NCBI GenBank assembly: GCA_030628225.1
Contig: DAOVRJ010000105.1
Span: 1 to 8,260 of the forward strand
Source: Candidatus Zixiibacteriota bacterium
GTDB lineage: Bacteria; SM23-81
Reading direction: 5' to 3'
Length of the DNA stretch: 8,260 nucleotides
Shown here piece by piece: positions 601 to 8,260 of the stretch. Each line of letters opens with the position of its first letter. Positions within the stretch are counted from its first letter, which is position 1. The translations under genes and the position numbers were made by a program. A model generated the notes under the pieces. It saw nothing but the letters and a program-made list of their open reading frames with translations. It was not told the DNA's origin and made no database searches.

Positions 601-650
601 GGAGGTCACCGCCTTTGTTTTAGCTTTAGTTTTGGGTTCTAAAGAAGGGG

Positions 651-682
651 TCGAGGATTCGAGGATCCAAGGGTTCGAGGGA
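651..682 (+). repeat. 8-base tandem array (TCGAGGAT type), left arm
   Basis: Four consecutive 8-base units start at 651, 659, 667 and 675: TCGAGGAT, TCGAGGAT, CCAAGGGT and TCGAGGGA. The spacing is exact although the units vary. The reverse complement of this array closely matches the array at 736-767, so the two arms could pair as a long imperfect stem with a loop of about 55 bases. Confidence 0.75.
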
Positions 683-735
683 ACTTCGTTCCTCTCCATA
701 GATCACCTTATGATTGTGACGCAAGATTTTCACTC

Positions 736-767
736 GAACCCTAGAATCCTTGACTCCTTGAATCCTA
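736..767 (+). repeat. 8-base tandem array (GAATCCTT type), right arm, inverted
   Basis: Four consecutive 8-base units start at 736, 744, 752 and 760: GAACCCTA, GAATCCTT, GACTCCTT and GAATCCTA. Read on the opposite strand they give AGGATTCA-like units, the same consensus as the array at 651-682. About 23 of 28 positions between 654-681 and 739-766 are complementary by hand alignment. Confidence 0.75.
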
Positions 768-801
768 TGTTTTTCACGAACACAAACACGTGCTTTTCTT
801 C

Positions 802-827
802 CAATTCAATTTTCAATTTTCAATGCC
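802..827 (+). repeat. 7-base CAATTTT array overlapping a gene end
   Basis: CAAT occurs at 807, 814 and 821 with exact 7-base spacing, plus an extra CAAT at 802. The last codons of the 976-aa kinase (Lys-Ile-Glu-Asn-stop, TGA at 808-806 on the minus strand) are read from this repeat, so the present C-terminus of that protein is made of array sequence. Confidence 0.65.
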
Positions 828-3736
828 TTTAGCCTTCCCCTCGCATCCTCCACCTCCCCAATCCCCTCATCGGCATCCTTCCAGATCTCCAAAAACTCCT
901 CGTACTGCTCCATGGCCTTTTTGTTCCAGCCCGATCTCTCATAAGCCTGGCCCAGATAATAGTGGGCTTTCACAGAAGCGATGGCGTTCAACGCTCGGGT
1001 ACGATTGTGGCAGGAAAGTATATTTTCAAAAGCGCTCACCGACTCTGCCAGCATACCCTGCTCTAAATAGGTCCTGGCCAGCGTGTTGTGAATATAGAAG
1101 TGCGTCGGGAATTCAATTGTATCTTGAAAAGGCTTTTCAAAGTAGGATAGAGCATCCTGAGGTCGACCTCTTGCCAGCTCAACGTGACCTCTGGCATTCC
1201 AGTAATACCCTTTGACCCGAATGGGCTTCCCGGGGATATCTTGCTCCATGATTTCGATCATATGCTGGGCTTTTTCCAACTCACCGTTTTCCGATAAGAA
1301 CTGGACATAATACATCCGCCATTGGTTCGCTAAATACTGGTCGGTTCTGCTGGAGATCTCGATGGCCGTTTCGAGTTCCGATAAGGCCGCATCGAGGTTC
1401 TTCTGCTCTCGGTAGATCGCCGCTTTTACAAACAGCTTGTCATCCTGCCGAGCTTCGGTCCGCTCCATCTCATCCGCCGCCAGCCCATGGTCAAGAACCT
1501 TGAGGGCTTCGTTCAGCTTTCCCTGATAAAGGGGAACGAGGGCTAAAAAAGCTCTCCCCCCTGAGCGAGCCACTTTCTCTGAGCACGAGGTCAGTTCTTT
1601 GTAACAGCTTTCAGCTTTGGCATATTCCCGTGAAAACAGGTACATATGACCCAGCTTTGCCAGGGACGTGTGAAAGTCCGGCTTGATCTGCAAAGCTTTT
1701 TGATACGATTCGATGGCCTGCTCTGTTTTTCCGTTGTTCGCATAGATATCAGCTCTGGTGTCATAAGGGTTGGCTTCCTGCGGAGCTAAGGCAATATATT
1801 TATTGATGGCCCAGAGAGACCTCTCAAAATCGCCCAGCTCGTTGTACATATATGCAAGCCAGTTATAGGCTGGTTTATAAAAAGGATCTATCTCAATGGC
1901 TCTCTCGAACTGATTAGCAGACTTTTCGGCATCGCCAAGGAAATCGCTATAAATGATCCCTAAATAGAGAAAAGCATATTTCTCATCCGTATAGCATTCG
2001 ACTATTTCCTGCAATTCATTGATGGCCTGGTCATATTCTCCCGAAACCAGCGCATGCATGCTGTGAATGTACTTCCGCTCCATACGGCTGACTCTGCCAG
2101 AGTATTTCACTGCTTTACTGAGCAGCTCCTCCCGATTCTCAATTCCCGTTATGTTGGCAAGCTGATAATAGGCCATGGCAAAGGTGGAATCGTACTCCAG
2201 AGCTTTGCGTAAGCTCTTCTCTCCTTCCAAAATATATACCTTGGACAGATAGTCAACGCCCTCAACATAATAACGGTAGGCCTCGGGCGAATGAGTGGTC
2301 ACATCGGCGATCTCAGGATCCTTCTCGTGCTGAGCTTCGACAGGAAGGGAAAGGTCCTCCTTTACCTCAACGGTCAGCCTATCCACCAGGGAAAATATCT
2401 TCTCGCCAGACTCCCCGGTGATTCGCTGCGAGGCTATCACCTTGCCGCTTGATACTTCGACTAGCTGAGAGGTCAGCACGACCTGTGGTTCCACCTGGAG
2501 GATGTTGCCGAGAAGCATATATTTGGCCTTCGCTTCGTTGGCCACCTCCGAGGCCACTTCTCGATCGATGACCTTGTCTCCCTCCCTGCCCAGCAGTTTC
2601 AGAATGTCGTACAGCCTCTGGCTGGAAACCACTCTCATATATTGAGACTCTGAGAGATCGGTGATCAACAGATTGGTGACGATCTCGCCCAGTCGTTTTT
2701 CGTCCTCCCCATCCGTCAGATTCTCGAAATACATGATGGCCAAAGAATTCTCCTGAGCGCTGGCCTCCTGCTGCGGACCGATCTCTACCCGGAAGGGCTT
2801 GAAGATGAAGAACAGAGTGATGGCCAGAAAAACGACCGAGGCGGGCACGATCACCGAGAGGCGGGCTTTCTTCGGCCTGGCCATGCTCACTCTGGAAGGA
2901 GCTCGACCTGTGGTGGTATACTCCAGAATCCTCCTCTCATGTTTCAGATCTGCCAATACCCCATCGATGTGTTGATAGCGTTCTTCCCTGTCTTTCGTCA
3001 ATGCTTTTTCCACGATCCGCTGCAGCCCCTCCGGAACATTGGCTTTATACCGTGCCAAAGGCTCCGGCGTCTCGTTGACGATGGAGTAGATCACGGCCGC
3101 CTCGTGATCGCCCCTGAACGGCAACTGTCCGGTGATCATCTCGTACAAGACCACACCGAAGGAGAAAATGTCCGACCGCTGATCCACCTCCATGGCCTGG
3201 GCCTGCTCCGGAGACATGTAGGCCACCGTCCCCAGGGTCGAGCCGGTGGAGGTCAGCTTGGTGGCCCCCTTCAGCTTGGCCAGCCCGAAGTCCATGATCT
3301 TCACCCGGCCCTCGGGCGCGACCATGATGTTGTCCGACTTAATGTCCCGATGGACCACATCCTTCTCGTGAGCTGCCGTCAATCCCTCGCAGATCTGAAC
3401 GGCGATGTCCAGGACCTTCTTGAGGGTTAGCTTCTCCTTCTCGATCAGTTCCTTGACACTCTGACCCCGGCAGTACTCCATGACGATGAACAGCCGGCCG
3501 TCGAATTCATCGATTTCATAGATCGTGGTGACATTTGGATGATTCAAAGAAGATGCCGCCTTGGCTTCGTGGATGAACCGCTCCTTCCCGACCTCATCGG
3601 CGGTCATGTGCTCGGGCAAAAACTTCAAGGCCACCAGCCGGTCCAGCTTGAGGTCCTGGGCCTTGTACACCACGCCCATGCCACCCTCGCCGAGCTTGTA
3701 GATAATTTCATAATGTGAGATGGTTTTGCCGATCAT
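806..3736 (-). CDS. Membrane-anchored Ser/Thr kinase with TolB-like domain and TPR array
   Basis: A 976-aa receptor-like kinase. The Hanks-type domain (about 1-270) has GEGGMGVV (16-23), Lys38, HRDIKSDN (129-136), DFG (149-151) and SPE (175-177), so it should be active. A basic stretch (RPKKAR, 287-292) precedes one hydrophobic span (about 294-312), which places the kinase in the cytoplasm and the remainder outside the inner membrane. Residues 330-465 resemble the TolB/FlgO-like domain found in COG5616-type proteins (LAIMYFENL..., then KYMLLGNI and [14 protein letters not shown]). Residues of about 480-965 are TPR-like helical repeats (for example [49 protein letters not shown]), a likely protein-binding or ligand-sensing scaffold. 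The start overlaps the previous gene's stop by 4 bases (ATGA), which suggests translational coupling; a GGGA lies 8 bases upstream. Sampled lines are about 53-63% G+C in the kinase part and about 37-48% in the TPR part. The partner and signal are unknown. Confidence 0.95.
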
Positions 3737-5967
3737 TTTCCCAATCCCATTTTCTTCAGCAACGCCGTGAACCTTGGATCCGAGCGCATATTGTCAAATG
3801 CTGGTTCCACTTTGATCTCACATAGCAAACTATCACGTTCCTCATAAGCCTTTTCAAGCCATTGGAATACCTGATCCTTCTTACCAAAGGCGGTGTGGAT
3901 TAAAGCTATCCCGTACGATGAGACATACTTTCGTTTCGATAGCTCCTTCAATTCGTCGAGTATTTTCAGCGCCTCACCTCTCTTGCCTGCCACTGCATAG
4001 GCGTGTCCAAGCTGCGTTATGAATATGGGGCTGCCCAAGGAGAGGTTTGTTGCCTCTTGAAATTCTGACACGGCTTCCTCACACATCCCCTTTCGCAGAT
4101 ACGCCTCACCGAGATTGCTGTGCGCCGGGATGAAGTTCCGCTCCATTTCGAGCGCTTTTCTGCATTGCCCTATCGCCTGGTCGTACTGACGCGCCTCGCA
4201 AAATACCGCTCCTACGAGCGCGTTTATGATGAGCGAAAGCGGGTCAAGTTCTTGAGCTCGTTTAGCCTCGGCGATTGACTCATCGTGCCTCCCCATTACC
4301 GCTAAATAATAAGCATACCACTGGTGAGCTGTTGCATAGCTTGGGTTGAGCTCAATGGCTCGCTTGAATTCCCTCTCAGCGCTTTCCCAGTTCCAATCGT
4401 GTACCGCTCTGACGAATGCCAGCGAGTTGTGAGCCTCGGCAAGGGTTTCATCTATCTCCAGTGCCTTCTTTGCTGCCACCTTTGCCCGAGGGTAAACCTC
4501 TTTAGGGTGAAGATAACCAAAGTGGCCAACGAGATTGTAATAGTCGGCTATTCCTGCGTAGGCCGAAGCATAGGTCGGGTCTTTTTCGATCGCCTGCTGA
4601 AAGTATCCCAGACCCTTCTTCAGTCCCTCCTCTGTTCTCTTGTTCAAGAAGTAGCGGCCCTTTAAATATAGGTTGTACGCATCCGGACTCTCTGTATGAC
4701 GTTTCACAATAGCCGCTTTTTCTTTTCCTAAAAGCTTAACCTTCAACTTTTCTACAATCGCCAGGGATATCTCATCCTGAATGGCGAAGATATCCTCCAT
4801 ATCCCGGTCGTACCGCTCCGACCAGAGATGGTAGCCGTCAGCAACGTTGACAAGCTGTGCCGAGATACGCAGGCGATTATCCACTTTCCGCACACTGCCT
4901 TCTAACAGCGTCTTCACTTTCAGCTTTTTACCAATATCGCGGATGTCCTCCCTCTTATCCTTGAACACAAAACTTGAGGTCCGAGCAACGACACGCAAAC
5001 CTTCAACATGCGTCAGAGCATTGATGATCTCCTCTGTCATGCCATCACAGAAGTACTCCTGCTCTGGGTCGGCGCTCATATTCGTAAACGGTAGCACAGC
5101 AATGGAGGGCTGAGACTTGGTGGCAGCCGGTACCTTTAAAACCCCGGACTCCAGATCTTTCCGGACCTTTCTCAAATCGACCAGAATCTCCTCAGTGTTT
5201 GGGTAACGTTCCTCCGGTCTTTTGGCAAGCGCCTTGTTGACCATCTGCTCTAACTCCATCGGCACGCCGGTCCGCAAACCTGTTACCGGCTCCGGCTCTT
5301 CATTCAAAATCGAGTACACCACAGCCTGATCATATTCCCCTTTGAACGGCAGCTTCCCGGTAAGCATTTCATACAGGACAACACCCAGAGACCAGATGTC
5401 CGTCCGGCGATCTACCTTCTCCCCACGAGTTTGCTCCGGGGACATATAAGCCACTGTTCCTAAAGTTGCGCCTGCTTTTGTTAGCTTGCTCTGCCCAGCT
5501 AACTTGGCCAGCCCGAAATCCAAGATCTTCACCTGGCCATCTTCGGTGACGAAGATGTTGCCTGGTTTTATATCCCGATGCACAATCCCCTGCCCGTGTG
5601 CCTTGGTCAGACCCTGGGCCACTTGAATGGCGATGTCCAGCGCTTCGTCTAACTTCAAATGCCCTCGCTCGACCTTCTCGTCCACCGTCTCGCCCTGGTA
5701 GCAGGCCATGGCAATGAACATTCGCCCATCGTCGGTTTCATCAATTTCATAAATGGTGCAGATGTTTGGGTGATCCAATGCCGAGGCCGCTTGAGCTTCC
5801 TGAATGAAACGCTCCTTGGCCTCGGCATTGCGGGTTAAATCAAACGGCAGGAATTTCAAAGCAACGATGCGTTTGAGCTTCGTGTCCTGAGCCTTGTACA
5901 CCACGCCCATGCCACCCTCGCCGATTTTTTCCAGGATCTTGTAATGTAGAATAGTTTTGCCGATCAT
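3733..5967 (-). CDS. Soluble Ser/Thr kinase with TolB-like domain and TPR repeats
   Basis: A 744-aa protein and the first gene of the kinase cluster. The Hanks-type domain (about 1-270) has GEGGMGVV (16-23), Lys38, HRDIKPGN (130-137), DFG (150-152) and SPE (176-178). A short linker (271-285) with no hydrophobic span leads to a TolB-like domain (about 286-415: [23 protein letters not shown], split here as [10 protein letters not shown] and [11 protein letters not shown]; then [25 protein letters not shown]). TPR units follow (about 427-700), including [29 protein letters not shown] and [12 protein letters not shown], and the C-terminus ([21 protein letters not shown]) is typical of this kinase/TPR family. 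Without a membrane span or signal peptide it is predicted to be cytoplasmic, unlike the kinase it overlaps. Role inferred: phosphorylation signalling with TPR-mediated partner choice; the substrate cannot be told. The start follows GAGG 8 bases upstream, and its MIGKTI opening matches the paralogues. Confidence 0.95.
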
Positions 5968-5975
5968 TTTTCCAA

Positions 5976-5979
5976 CCTC
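5976..5979 (-). promoter_or_regulatory. Ribosome binding site of the 744-aa kinase gene
   Basis: GAGG on the minus strand, 8 bases ahead of the ATG at 5967. It supports the chosen start for the first kinase of the cluster. I could not find a convincing sigma70 promoter between this site and the repeat arrays upstream. Confidence 0.5.
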
Positions 5980-6058
5980 ATCCTGTTTATCAGCAATCTA
6001 AGGTGAGATTTGAGAAAAGATTAAACTCTTGGCAAGAATTTGTGAGTGCTTTAAGTGA

Positions 6059-6117
6059 AGGATGCTGGTAAAGGAAAGACCGATCCTTGATCCTTGATCC
6101 TGGATGCTGGTTAAAGG
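6059..6117 (+). repeat. 7-base GATCCTT/GATGCTG array with flanking direct repeat
   Basis: GAT starts at 6082, 6089, 6096 and 6103 at exact 7-base steps (GATCCTT, GATCCTT, GATCCTG, GATGCTG). The motif GGATGCTGGT followed by TAAAGG occurs at both ends (6060-6074 and 6102-6117, the second with one extra T), so the block looks like a duplicated element with the tandem units between. Confidence 0.7.
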
Positions 6118-6118
6118 C

Positions 6119-6166
6119 CGAGATTCGAGACTTGAGACTCGTTGAACCCCGAGACTAGAGACTCGT
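6119..6166 (+). repeat. 7-base GAGACTC/GAGATTC array
   Basis: GAGA starts at 6120, 6127 and 6134, then, after a degenerate stretch and a 3-base phase shift, at 6151 and 6158. The units read GAGATTC, GAGACTT, GAGACTC. The block sits between two TAAAGGC linkers (6112-6118 and 6166-6172). A sister array of the same family is at 8229-8255. Confidence 0.7.
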
Positions 6167-6191
6167 AAAGGCTGAAGTCAAAATATTTTCC

Positions 6192-6233
6192 CATTTTGCA
6201 TTTTTCACTTTTCATTTTTCACTTTGCATTTCT
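6192..6233 (+). repeat. 7-base CATTTTT/CACTTTT array
   Basis: CA starts at 6192, 6199, 6206, 6213, 6220 and 6227, six times at exact 7-base steps, with units CATTTTG, CATTTTT, CACTTTT, CATTTTT, CACTTTG. The array overlaps the 3' end of the minus-strand 95-codon ORF and encodes its last seven residues and stop. Confidence 0.8.
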
Positions 6234-6499
6234 TTTACCAGGATCCAGTATCCAAAAATCATACCGTGATACCTAATTAAAACCGGAATTTTCTTGTTGT
6301 CAATGGAAATGGTGGGGTATTCTGACCTAAAGGATATTTTCAGGATGGAATCGACCCTGCACGGATTAAATTTAGGGTCCTTTGCCATGGATGTCAAAGC
6401 ATTTTTCTGTGTTTGGGACAAAAGATACACAGAGATACAATTCAGTTCGATAACACAAGCGTGAGAATACTGAGCGGCTTTCATTTTTAAAGAAGGCAT
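6212..6499 (-). CDS. Small hypothetical protein, 95 aa, possibly a gene remnant
   Basis: I do not recognise this protein. It runs from an ATG at 6499 to a TGA at 6214-6212. No signal peptide, membrane span or known motif is evident; the middle is mildly basic and the C-terminal half reads like a beta-rich segment (TISIDNKKIPVLIRYHGMIFGYWILVKEM). It has three cysteines (15, 21, 47). There is no clear ribosome site ahead of the ATG, and the in-frame codons upstream reach a stop after only four residues. Its last seven codons (KEMQSEK plus start of stop) fall inside a 7-base repeat array, which suggests that the original 3' end has been replaced. It is transcribed away from argF and in the same direction as the kinase cluster, about 245 bases ahead of the first kinase. 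It could be a real lineage-specific gene, a truncated gene or a chance ORF; I cannot separate these by eye. Confidence 0.4.
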   Translation of the reverse strand: MPSLKMKAAQYSHACVIELNCISVYLLSQTQKNALTSMAKDPKFNPCRVDSILKISFRSEYPTISIDNKKIPVLIRYHGMIFGYWILVKEMQSEK

Positions 6500-6604
6500 C
6501 GTTAAACCAGACTACGAAATGCTCATTGAACCTGTTTTTGGAAGATCCGACACAGGAACTTCGCTGGTCCTCTCCACTTTATTAACGGTTGATTTTAAAA
6601 AGGC

Positions 6605-6632
6605 TTGACTTTTCTAAAAAAGACAACATAAT
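6605..6632 (+). promoter_or_regulatory. Probable sigma70-like promoter for argF
   Basis: TTGACT at 6605-6610 (5 of 6 to consensus) and CATAAT at 6627-6632 (5 of 6) are separated by 16 bases, with an A-rich spacer and an AT-rich region after it. Transcription would start near 6639 and give a leader of about 210 bases before argF. A weaker alternative pair lies closer (TTGAAT at 6755, TTTAAG at 6778). Confidence 0.5.
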
Positions 6633-6702
6633 TTATTTGCCTTGGTTATTGAATTTTGTTTGTTATTTGGTACTTGGGATTTTTAGAGTAAGTTTATCAA
6701 TA

Positions 6703-6745
6703 ACTTCTAAAATCAAAAATCGCTAATCAGCAATCGCAAATCATC
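6703..6745 (+). repeat. 7-base ATC-N4 array upstream of argF
   Basis: ATC starts at 6712, 6719, 6726, 6733 and 6740, five times at exact 7-base steps, with units ATCAAAA, ATCGCTA, ATCAGCA and ATCGCAA. It is introduced by AACTTCTAA, as is the sister array at 8159-8203 on the other side of argF. Confidence 0.75.
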
Positions 6746-6838
6746 GGAAAAAACTTGAATCTATCTACTTATGGACATTTAAGTAAAACGAATCCTATGC
6801 TCGGAAATACCCGCTGGGGCCTTACTGGAAAAACATTT

Positions 6839-6845
6839 GAAAGGA
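6839..6845 (+). promoter_or_regulatory. Ribosome binding site of argF
   Basis: GAAAGGA, 7 bases ahead of the ATG at 6853. It fixes the start of the carbamoyltransferase gene. Confidence 0.7.
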
Positions 6846-6852
6846 CGTTATC

Positions 6853-7860
6853 ATGGCAGTTAATCTTCGAGGTCGAAGTCTCGTAAAGTTGCTCGATTTT
6901 ACCCAGGATGAGATTCAATTTCTCCTGGTTCTTGCAAAAGACCTAAAAGATGCCAAATACAGCGGGGATGAGCAACCGTGTTTAAAAGGGAAAAACATCG
7001 CCCTTATCTTTGAGAAAACCTCTACCCGGACGAGATGTGCTTTCGAAGTTGCTGCTTATGATCAGGGGGCTCAAATTACTTATCTGGGACCAACCGGCAG
7101 TCAAATCGGGCATAAGGAAACAATGAAAGACACAGCACGTGTTCTGGGAAGAATGTACGACGGTATTCAATACCGGGGGTTCGGCCAGGAGATCGTCGAG
7201 GAACTTGCCAAATACGCCGGCGTGCCGGTCTGGAATGGATTGACCGACGAGTTTCACCCCACCCAGATTCTGGCTGACATGCTCACGATGCATGAGCATA
7301 CCGCAAAGCAAATAAATGAGATCACTTACTGTTACCTGGGTGACGCACGGAACAACATGGGCAATTCGCTGTTGGTCGGCGGGGCAAAACTGGGAATGGA
7401 TGTGAGATTATGTGCCCCAAAAGAGTGTTGGCCGAGCGAAGACCTGGTGAAGCAGTGTCGGGAAATAGCGAAAAAAACTGACGCCCGGATCACATTGACG
7501 GAGGATGTCACGGAAGGGGTAAAAGATGCTGATTTTCTGCATACCGACGTCTGGGTGTCGATGGGAGAAGCCGCCGAAAAATGGGAAGAGCGCATCAAGC
7601 TGCTTAAACCTTACCAGATCAATAGAGAGCTAATGGAATATACCGGAAACCCGAAGGTGAAGTTCATGCATTGTCTGCCTGCCTTCCATAACAGGAATAC
7701 CACAGTGGGAGAGGATATCTATCAGAAGTATGGATTAGACGGAATGGAAGTGACCGAAGATGTATTCGAATCCAGGTACTCCATTGTTTTTGACCAGGCG
7801 GAAAATCGCATGCATACAATTAAAGCTATTATGGTCGCAACATTAGGGGATCGAGCATAG
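6853..7860 (+). CDS. argF: Ornithine carbamoyltransferase
   Basis: A 335-aa cytoplasmic enzyme that joins carbamoyl phosphate and ornithine to give citrulline and phosphate, the sixth step of arginine synthesis; in arginine-deiminase organisms it runs in reverse. The N-terminal carbamoyl-phosphate domain carries STRTR (57-61), with SQIGHKET (83-90) and [11 protein letters not shown] (100-110) after it, and HPTQILAD (135-142). The ornithine domain carries [10 protein letters not shown] (163-172), DVWVSMGE (232-239) and the catalytic-site HCLP (273-276, Cys274). The C-terminal [13 protein letters not shown] is also typical. Length and all motifs fit the E. coli ArgF/ArgI (and ArcB) subgroup; nothing is missing. 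No other arg or arc gene is next to it, so synthesis versus catabolism cannot be settled here; ArcB is the alternative name. The start is supported by GAAAGGA 7 bases upstream and a family-like N-terminus. It is transcribed away from the kinases and is followed almost directly by a DUF4143 remnant. Confidence 0.97.
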
Positions 7861-7874
7861 TAGTAAAGAATTAA

Positions 7875-8132
7875 ATCAATTTCTGGAGGACAAAGTCAGG
7901 TTTGGAAGTCGACTTTGTGCTGGGAGGAGGCGAGGTTGCCATCGAGGTGAAGGGTACGAGTCGCATCGATAAAAGGGACTTGCGCCCTCTGAGAGCTTTT
8001 ATAGAGGAATGTTCGCCGCGCAAGGCTCTGGTAGTATGCAATGAGCGGGAGGAGAGAGTTCATGGGCAAATACGAATAATGCCCTTCAGAAAATTTTTAC
8101 GTGATTTATGGCAAGACAAGATTATTGGCTGA
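7875..8132 (+). pseudogene. C-terminal remnant of a DUF4143-type AAA ATPase
   Basis: The frame from just after a stop at 7872-7874 to TGA at 8132 encodes about 85 residues that match the C-terminal DUF4143 domain of the AAA_14/DUF4143 ATPases, which are usually around 380-450 residues long and often act as stand-alone, mobile or toxin-like accessory genes. Diagnostic pieces are FWRTKSGLEVDFVL, VAIEVKGTSRIDKRDLRPLRAF and KALVVCNE; from memory this domain has a PD-(D/E)XK-like fold, and the EVDF and EVK residues suit that. A TTG at 7902 with GGAGGA at 7885-7890 mimics a start, but FWRTKSG, part of the conserved domain, lies upstream of the TTG, so the SD-like bases are old coding sequence. The ATPase domain (Walker A/B) is absent. 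The fragment begins within about 15 bases of the argF stop, which points to a deletion or recombination junction there. Confidence 0.8.
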
Positions 8133-8158
8133 TTATCTTGATTTGCGAAGAAAAGATA

Positions 8159-8203
8159 AACTTCTAAGATCAAAAATCTTCGATCGTAAATCGCAGATCT
8201 TCA
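8159..8203 (+). repeat. 7-base ATC-N4 array downstream of the DUF4143 remnant
   Basis: ATC starts at 8169, 8176, 8183, 8190 and 8197, five times at exact 7-base steps (ATCAAAA, ATCTTCG, ATCGTAA, ATCGCAG). It begins with AACTTCTAA like the array at 6703-6745; the first 20 or so bases of the two differ at only one or two positions, then diverge. Confidence 0.75.
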
Positions 8204-8214
8204 CAATAACGAGC

Positions 8215-8260
8215 TTCGTAAAAACCGGGGTTCGGGATTCGAGACTCGAGATTCGTAAAA
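8215..8260 (+). repeat. 7-base GGATTCGA/GACTCGA array with TTCGTAAAA flanks
   Basis: TC recurs at 8232, 8239, 8246 and 8253 at exact 7-base steps, with units GGGATTC, GAGACTC and GAGATTC. The array is bracketed by the direct repeat TTCGTAAAA at 8215-8223 and 8252-8260. The same unit family occurs at 6119-6166. It may continue beyond the window edge. Confidence 0.7.

Follow-up and report, generated by a model that had tools for sequence, protein, structure and literature searches.

The stretch of DNA considered here, 8,260 nucleotides in length and hereafter the window, is the entire contig C165 of the genome of a Candidatus Zixiibacteriota bacterium (G000; 2.34 Mb, 306 contigs, 92% complete), and its intergenic regions contain several tandem arrays with units of 7 or 8 bases. 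We propose, with a probability of roughly 0.7, that these arrays are arms of small hairpin elements related to the S23/IVP intervening sequences (IVSs), which have been described as selfish insertions in rRNA whose ends are complementary and are associated with four-helix-bundle proteins of the family PF05635. We infer that in the window several lineages of such elements are represented by derivatives or remnants that lack the gene, and this would account for the coexistence of multiple unit types with a common step; the arrays are probably not free-standing microsatellites. An earlier sequence-only reading of the window had attributed the common step to slippage, to a polymerase or element generating 7-mers, or to selection on helical or protein-binding spacing, and among these options it is a shared source in the form of an element that agrees best with the association of such arrays with S23/IVP genes.

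The principal evidence comes from 80 loci with PF05635-type genes, which were collected from many bacterial phyla. Each of nine aligned proteins matches PF05635 and four also match bAvd; solved structural relatives are 2gsc (E 8e-33) and 2rld. A tandem array lies within 250 bp of the PF05635 gene on the upstream side in 46 loci and on the downstream side in 56, and the periods of these 102 flanking arrays are predominantly 7 (72 arrays) or 8 (26), with 9 in three. Intergenic control windows at a distance of over 1 kb show arrays, of mixed periods, in 33 of 211 cases, and shuffled sequences in 6 of 211 (Fisher p <= 8e-12). The two flanks match each other in inverted orientation in 52 of 79 loci and in direct orientation in 7 of 79, giving the gene-bearing loci the complementary stem-forming ends typical of IVSs. 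Inverted matches drop to 4% when flanks are swapped between loci and are found around just 8 of 140 other open reading frames (ORFs) of 90-200 residues (p 7e-22). Their presence within loci and rarity between swapped loci imply that each element has its own unit, which is common to both its arms; in the locus L215 even a variant unit occupies the matching place in the two arms. A screen of 1654 other ORFs recovered strong inverted-array flanks in three, one of which proved to be a previously unrecognised PF05635 member (2e-11). These elements are tightly packed between their neighbors, with a median of 4 nt from the left arm to the upstream gene and 12.5 nt from the right arm to the next gene, and in 35 of 46 cases the element gene and both of its neighbors point in the same direction. 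Two of the elements fold with z-scores of -7.0 (L270) and -4.0 (L215). An S23 match was absent from the phage collection. One genome (G011) contains 19 PF05635 matches, many of them as opposite-strand pairs a few hundred bases apart.

Cyanobacterial plasmids provide filled and empty versions of the same sites. In these plasmids four-helix-bundle genes, mostly with heptamer arms, are inserted between neighboring genes, for example in operons of clustered regularly interspaced short palindromic repeats (CRISPR) systems and beside transfer genes; those in L269, L271 and L275 lie within CRISPR type I-D and III-B operons. As the annotated copies sit between protein genes and not in the loop of an rRNA helix, we term them IVS-like rather than rRNA IVSs. 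The Nostoc-group elements include heptamer arms such as GGGAGTA, and the analogy with cyanobacterial heptamer repeats drawn in the sequence-only reading was thus apt. At site 1 the element is present in the Trichormus and Scytonema plasmids (L268, L279) and absent from those of Aulosira, Nostoc and Microchaete (L277, L286, L287), which are ~97% identical. The 423 bp element (L268:2443-2865) immediately follows a stop codon and is bordered on both sides by the 5 bp sequence GTAAT, of which the empty site has a single copy. A partly deleted remnant of it is seen at the same site in L278, and versions ~78-83% identical are found at other places in the Aulosira and Nostoc C052 plasmids (L284, L285). 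Site 2 is filled in L270 and L273 and empty in L280 and L288, and in L281 it is occupied by a gene-less inverted pair with a related unit and the same left junction as the gene-bearing form. Site 5 is filled in L272 and empty in L285 and L291, at a TAATG stop/start overlap, and site 6 is filled in L285 and empty in L272. Copies at the same site differ by whole units: L268 and L279 by 14 bp, or two units, and L270 and L273 by 7 bp. Hence slippage, as the sequence-only reading had suggested, does contribute to the arrays. Taken together, these sequence comparisons show that the same anatomy recurs in many phyla, that the gene-bearing element appears or is missing as one block between otherwise near-identical genes, that the start of this block coincides with the upstream gene's stop codon or lies close to it, and that gene-less inverted pairs also exist, one sharing the left junction of a gene-bearing element, with arms that differ by whole units.

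The sequence-only reading had called for a scan of intergenic periods in the source genome and its relatives, and such a scan, based on samples and pattern counts, places period 7 foremost in a family-mate and, across many unit families, in G000, the outcome that the reading had named as supportive. In a sample of 40 contigs of G000 (319 kb), chosen regardless of repeats, intergenic tandem repeats occur per 100 kb at 24 for period 7, 13 for period 14, 11 for period 21 and 8 for period 8. The corresponding period-7 values are 2 in coding sequence and 0 after shuffling, contrary to the possibility raised earlier that shuffled intergenic sequence might yield similar runs. In the family-mate, of another genus, period 7 reaches 61 per 100 kb of intergenic sequence in regions that were partly chosen for repeats. 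The pattern GAGATTCGAGATTCGAGA has 174 matches in the G000 genome at no more than two mismatches and ATCCAGNATCCAGNATCC has 184, and the reversed pattern gives 0 in either case. The 7-base unit families of G000 include GAGATTC, ATCCAGN, AAATGCA, GGGGTTA, TTACTGC, GTTCCGA and TTAGCTG, and there are also 9-base (GAGAGTTNN) and 8-base (GAGGATTC) families. On the element reading, this diversity of units would reflect the presence of several element lineages side by side. Among the sampled contigs, some of them chosen for arrays, 40% of the arrays, as against 23% of the intergenic sequence, are found no more than 500 bp from a contig end, and breaks between genes in some metagenome assemblies may be due to such arrays. 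GAGATTN heptamer arrays resembling those of G000, e.g. GAGATTGGAGATTAGAGA, were also noticed in a genome of another phylum (G012).

The source genome is linked to PF05635 elements through its sister genus, where in G001 inverted GAGATTC arrays stand on both sides of a PF05635 gene, whose product is a four-helix bundle, the 23S rRNA intervening sequence protein. Of 107 sampled G000 arrays, 62 have 12-mers in common with the flanks of eight PF05635 loci of the sister genus, whereas eight loci from other organisms share them with a mean of 1.7 arrays. Several unit families of G000 recur at these sister-genus flanks, namely GAGATTC (L127), CATTTTT/AAATGCA (L142, L144), the 9-base unit (L130) and the 8-base unit (L122). 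Two arrays of the window participate in this link: that at 6189-6233 (as 6192-6225) shares 12-mers with L142 and L144, and that at 8224-8256 (as 8226-8255) with L127, although neither has a clear inverted partner within the window. The single PF05635 gene of G000 has weak flanks of the GGGGTTA type, a unit that forms arrays elsewhere in the same genome.

The arrays of the window were scored by their matches at the claimed step against 300 dinucleotide shuffles of ~1.5 kb of intergenic sequence, with a score counted anywhere in the shuffle (Table 1). Both arrays of period 8 and five of the seven of period 7 score above the shuffles, so that most of the arrays listed in the sequence-only reading stand. 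The two ATC-N4 runs are, taken singly, not above chance, though the two are alike in direct orientation (score 20), and the CAATTTT array is more weakly supported than the other confirmed step-7 arrays. The period described as exact is exact in its step but not in its units, and the description of the units as unrelated was too strong. The GAGACTC and GAGATTC arrays are similar in direct orientation (score 18), as are the CAATTTT and CATTTTT arrays (score 14), and the two period-8 arrays, with an inverted score of 18 and a direct score of 5, are inverted copies of one another. When the region 645-772 is folded, the latter pair gives a single long hairpin (-53.5 kcal/mol, z -5.2), relatives of which are found elsewhere in G000 (L018, L064, L020). 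The unit ATCCAGN, related to the GATCCTT array, has 184 matches in the genome against 0 for the control. The possible inverted partner of that array is at chance level when scored as a lone array (194/300 shuffles). A 53-bp block at the contig end (8208-8260), which includes the GAGATTC array, has identical copies on contigs C110 and C20. A search of six sources, the window included, against Rfam gave nothing at the gathering score.

Table 1. Arrays of the window, with matches at the repeat step and the shuffles attaining the same score, followed by other features of the source genome
Feature	Position	Strand	Support or remarks
Left arm of gene-less hairpin, 8-base array, unit about GAGGATTC	651..682	+	step 8, 18/24; shuffles 0/300
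Right arm of 645-772 hairpin, inverted 8-base array	736..767	-	step 8, 19/24; shuffles 0/300
CAATTTT heptamer array	805..827	+	13/16 matches; shuffles 4/300; no partner seen
GATCCTT/GATNCTGG heptamer array	6082..6110	+	20/22 matches; shuffles 0/300
GAGACTC heptamer array, two blocks, one orientation	6119..6165	+	24/40 matches; shuffles 2/300
CATTTTT/CACTTTT heptamer array	6189..6233	+	28/38 matches; shuffles 0/300
Short possible inverted partner of 6082-6110 (CCAGGATCCAGTATCC)	6237..6256	-	weak: inverted 11, direct 6
ATC-N4 degenerate heptamer run, weak	6706..6745	+	20/33 matches; shuffles 15/300
ATC-N4 degenerate heptamer run, weak	8162..8203	+	19/35 matches; shuffles 51/300
GAGATTC heptamer array at contig end	8224..8256	+	19/26 matches; shuffles 0/300
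Y1 transposase (RAYT-like) gene	L293:1366-1905		flanked on each side by its own hairpin CCCCCGCTCGTGAGCGGGGG; surrounded by AAATGCA heptamer blocks
Dispersed GC-rich hairpin block, copies	L018:3994-4233, L020, L026:10514-10750, L032:447-613, L061, L064		

Several observations weigh against the interpretation of the arrays as element arms. The window has no PF05635 gene, and the only match in G000 is on contig C261; a single such gene stands against more than 100 arrays in the ~0.5 Mb sampled, partly for arrays, so that most arrays of this genome are gene-less. Array pairing inside G000 (11 inverted against 8 direct) is not decisive alone. Random intergenic windows of the sister genus, drawn 300 times from regions selected for GAGATTC, likewise have 12-mers in common with an average of 22 and a maximum of 52 G000 arrays; part of the lineage link is thus background, and the comparison is unclean since the sister-genus genome itself holds many gene-less arrays. 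About a third of the PF05635 loci have no detectable inverted pair, all 80 loci belong to one PF05635 subfamily, and gene calling relied on a crude ORF scan. Finally, the GTAAT of site 1 is the only clean target duplication, the junctions of sites 2, 3, 4, 6 and 7 being too diverged for a confident reading.

A complete element has a four-helix-bundle gene, encoding ~120 residues, set between a left array with units of 7, 8 or 9 bases and a right array that is its inverted copy. By analogy with rRNA IVSs, the arms may pair in the mRNA to give a long stem, a candidate site for RNase III, and cutting of this stem could render an insertion between the genes of an operon tolerable. In-register slippage combined with hairpin-templated correction might then preserve the match between the arms as the unit changes over time. 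This raises a broader but tentative possibility, to which we give less than even odds, that the heptamer repeats of bacteria at large, including those of G000, Xanthomonas and Nostoc, represent the ends of a single widespread and undescribed class of mobile elements, whose sole gene encodes a four-helix-bundle S23/IVP mobility factor and whose arms rewrite their own sequence 7-9 bases at a time, and that the rRNA IVSs are copies which landed in rRNA. In the openly accessible literature, to which any claim of novelty is limited, we found no paper joining heptamer repeats with S23 IVSs and no description of S23 elements with heptamer arms between protein genes. Both heptamer repeats and rRNA IVSs have been described for years without an agreed origin, and once they are tied to one element with filled and empty plasmid sites, where the repeats come from and what the S23 protein does can be tested directly.

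The arrays might instead be ordinary simple-sequence repeats, in which slippage favors 7-9 bases, often within palindromes, with S23/IVP genes hitchhiking between them. The great excess of arrays over PF05635 genes in G000, the changes of unit number at fixed sites and the absence of an inverted partner for some arrays would all suit this explanation. We nevertheless consider it unlikely, as empty sites lack the arms and the gene together, inverted array flanks are specific to PF05635 genes, and the unit is peculiar to each locus but common to both of its arms. It is also conceivable that the arrays are regulatory signals, such as terminators or sites for proteins or G-quadruplexes, with spacing fixed by selection, given that they are intergenic and strongly folding and that G-rich units could form quadruplexes, as has been proposed for Xanthomonas and Nostoc (PMC4692102). 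The occurrence of steps of 7, 8 and 9 in one setting argues against a single fixed, helical spacing, and this, with the variation of units from site to site and the presence or absence of entire blocks between close relatives, makes a regulatory origin improbable.

Two further alternatives invoke a known enzyme acting on the arrays. One is that they are hairpins akin to repetitive extragenic palindromic (REP) sequences and bacterial interspersed mosaic elements (BIMEs), moved in trans by Y1 transposases of the REP-associated tyrosine transposase (RAYT) type. Among 60 genomes, comprising G000 and relatives, Y1_Tnp is found in all 25 with PF05635 but in only 16 of 35 without it (p 2e-6), and the RAYT gene of G000 is located among heptamer blocks. 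However, that gene is adjoined by different hairpins of its own, and the genomes of L179, L180 and L192 all carry PF05635 elements with no Y1_Tnp match, which speaks against dependence on Y1. Y1 transposition is not expected to give a 5-bp duplication of the kind seen at site 1, and we regard this origin too as having little probability. The other alternative is that the arrays are written by a reverse transcriptase with an S23/Avd-like partner protein, as in diversity-generating retroelements. The relationship of the proteins to bAvd is in its favor, but no RVT_1 match was found in G000 or its family-mate G001, nor in 5 of 12 other PF05635-carrying genomes. This mechanism is hence highly improbable, and the polymerase templating 7-mers that was suggested in the sequence-only reading finds no support either.

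The genes of the window include three adjacent Ser/Thr protein kinase ORFs on the minus strand (1-600, 806-3736 and 3733-5967), which are ~67-72% identical in DNA over the kinase part and are probably a tandem duplication; the two complete ones possess tetratricopeptide (TPR) repeats. Beyond them lie an ornithine/aspartate carbamoyltransferase gene (6853-7860; PF00185, PF02729), with an ATC-N4 run on each side in direct orientation, and a short ORF (7902-8132) with no Pfam match, possibly a decayed gene end. Elsewhere in G000 a GC-rich block of ~200 bp, dispersed and containing more than one hairpin (GGGGGAAGTTTCCCCCTCGCTCCGGCC...), has no match in Rfam and adjoins array pairs in several of its copies. 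L032 was considered in relation to L018 as an empty site for an array pair within a dispersed repeat, and was rejected as the right side fails to resume.

Among known systems, miniature inverted-repeat transposable elements (MITEs) and REP/BIME sequences resemble the elements described here in being short, intergenic and hairpin-forming, with gene-less copies outnumbering gene-bearing ones, but the arms here are tandem arrays whose sequence varies per element, and they lack known transposase ends. The Avd protein of diversity-generating retroelements belongs to a related four-helix-bundle family, as the bAvd match indicates, but differs in its association with a reverse transcriptase, none of which was found in G000 or G001. 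The TAACTGA repeats of Beggiatoaceae, Cyanobacteria and Bacteroidetes are likewise intergenic direct heptamer repeats in distant lineages with an unexplained mechanism of spread; they differ in having a single unit, almost no inverted copies and a proposed role as translational regulators (PMC4679880). The heptamers of Xanthomonas (GGGAATC) and Nostoc (GGGGAYT) are also dispersed and intergenic, with 70 convergent inverted pairs in X. campestris; the study that described them dealt with a single G-rich unit type and reported generally no association with mobile elements, unlike the many units and S23/IVP link seen here (PMC4692102). PDB 2gsc (XCC0516), a relative of the S23/IVP proteins, is named as an X. 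campestris protein in PMC4990558. Counterparts are also found in the rRNA IVSs with an S23p/IVP ORF of Salmonella, Leptospira and Coxiella, in which the ORF is similarly bordered by complementary stem-forming ends. The Coxiella IVS has GACAGAT heptamers in its 5' part, before the S23p ORF, in a number that varies between strains, and RNase III cuts at the first repeat (PMC4990558). The elements described here differ from these IVSs in lying between protein genes, in having arms made up of arrays of many units, and in the predominance of gene-less forms in the source genome.

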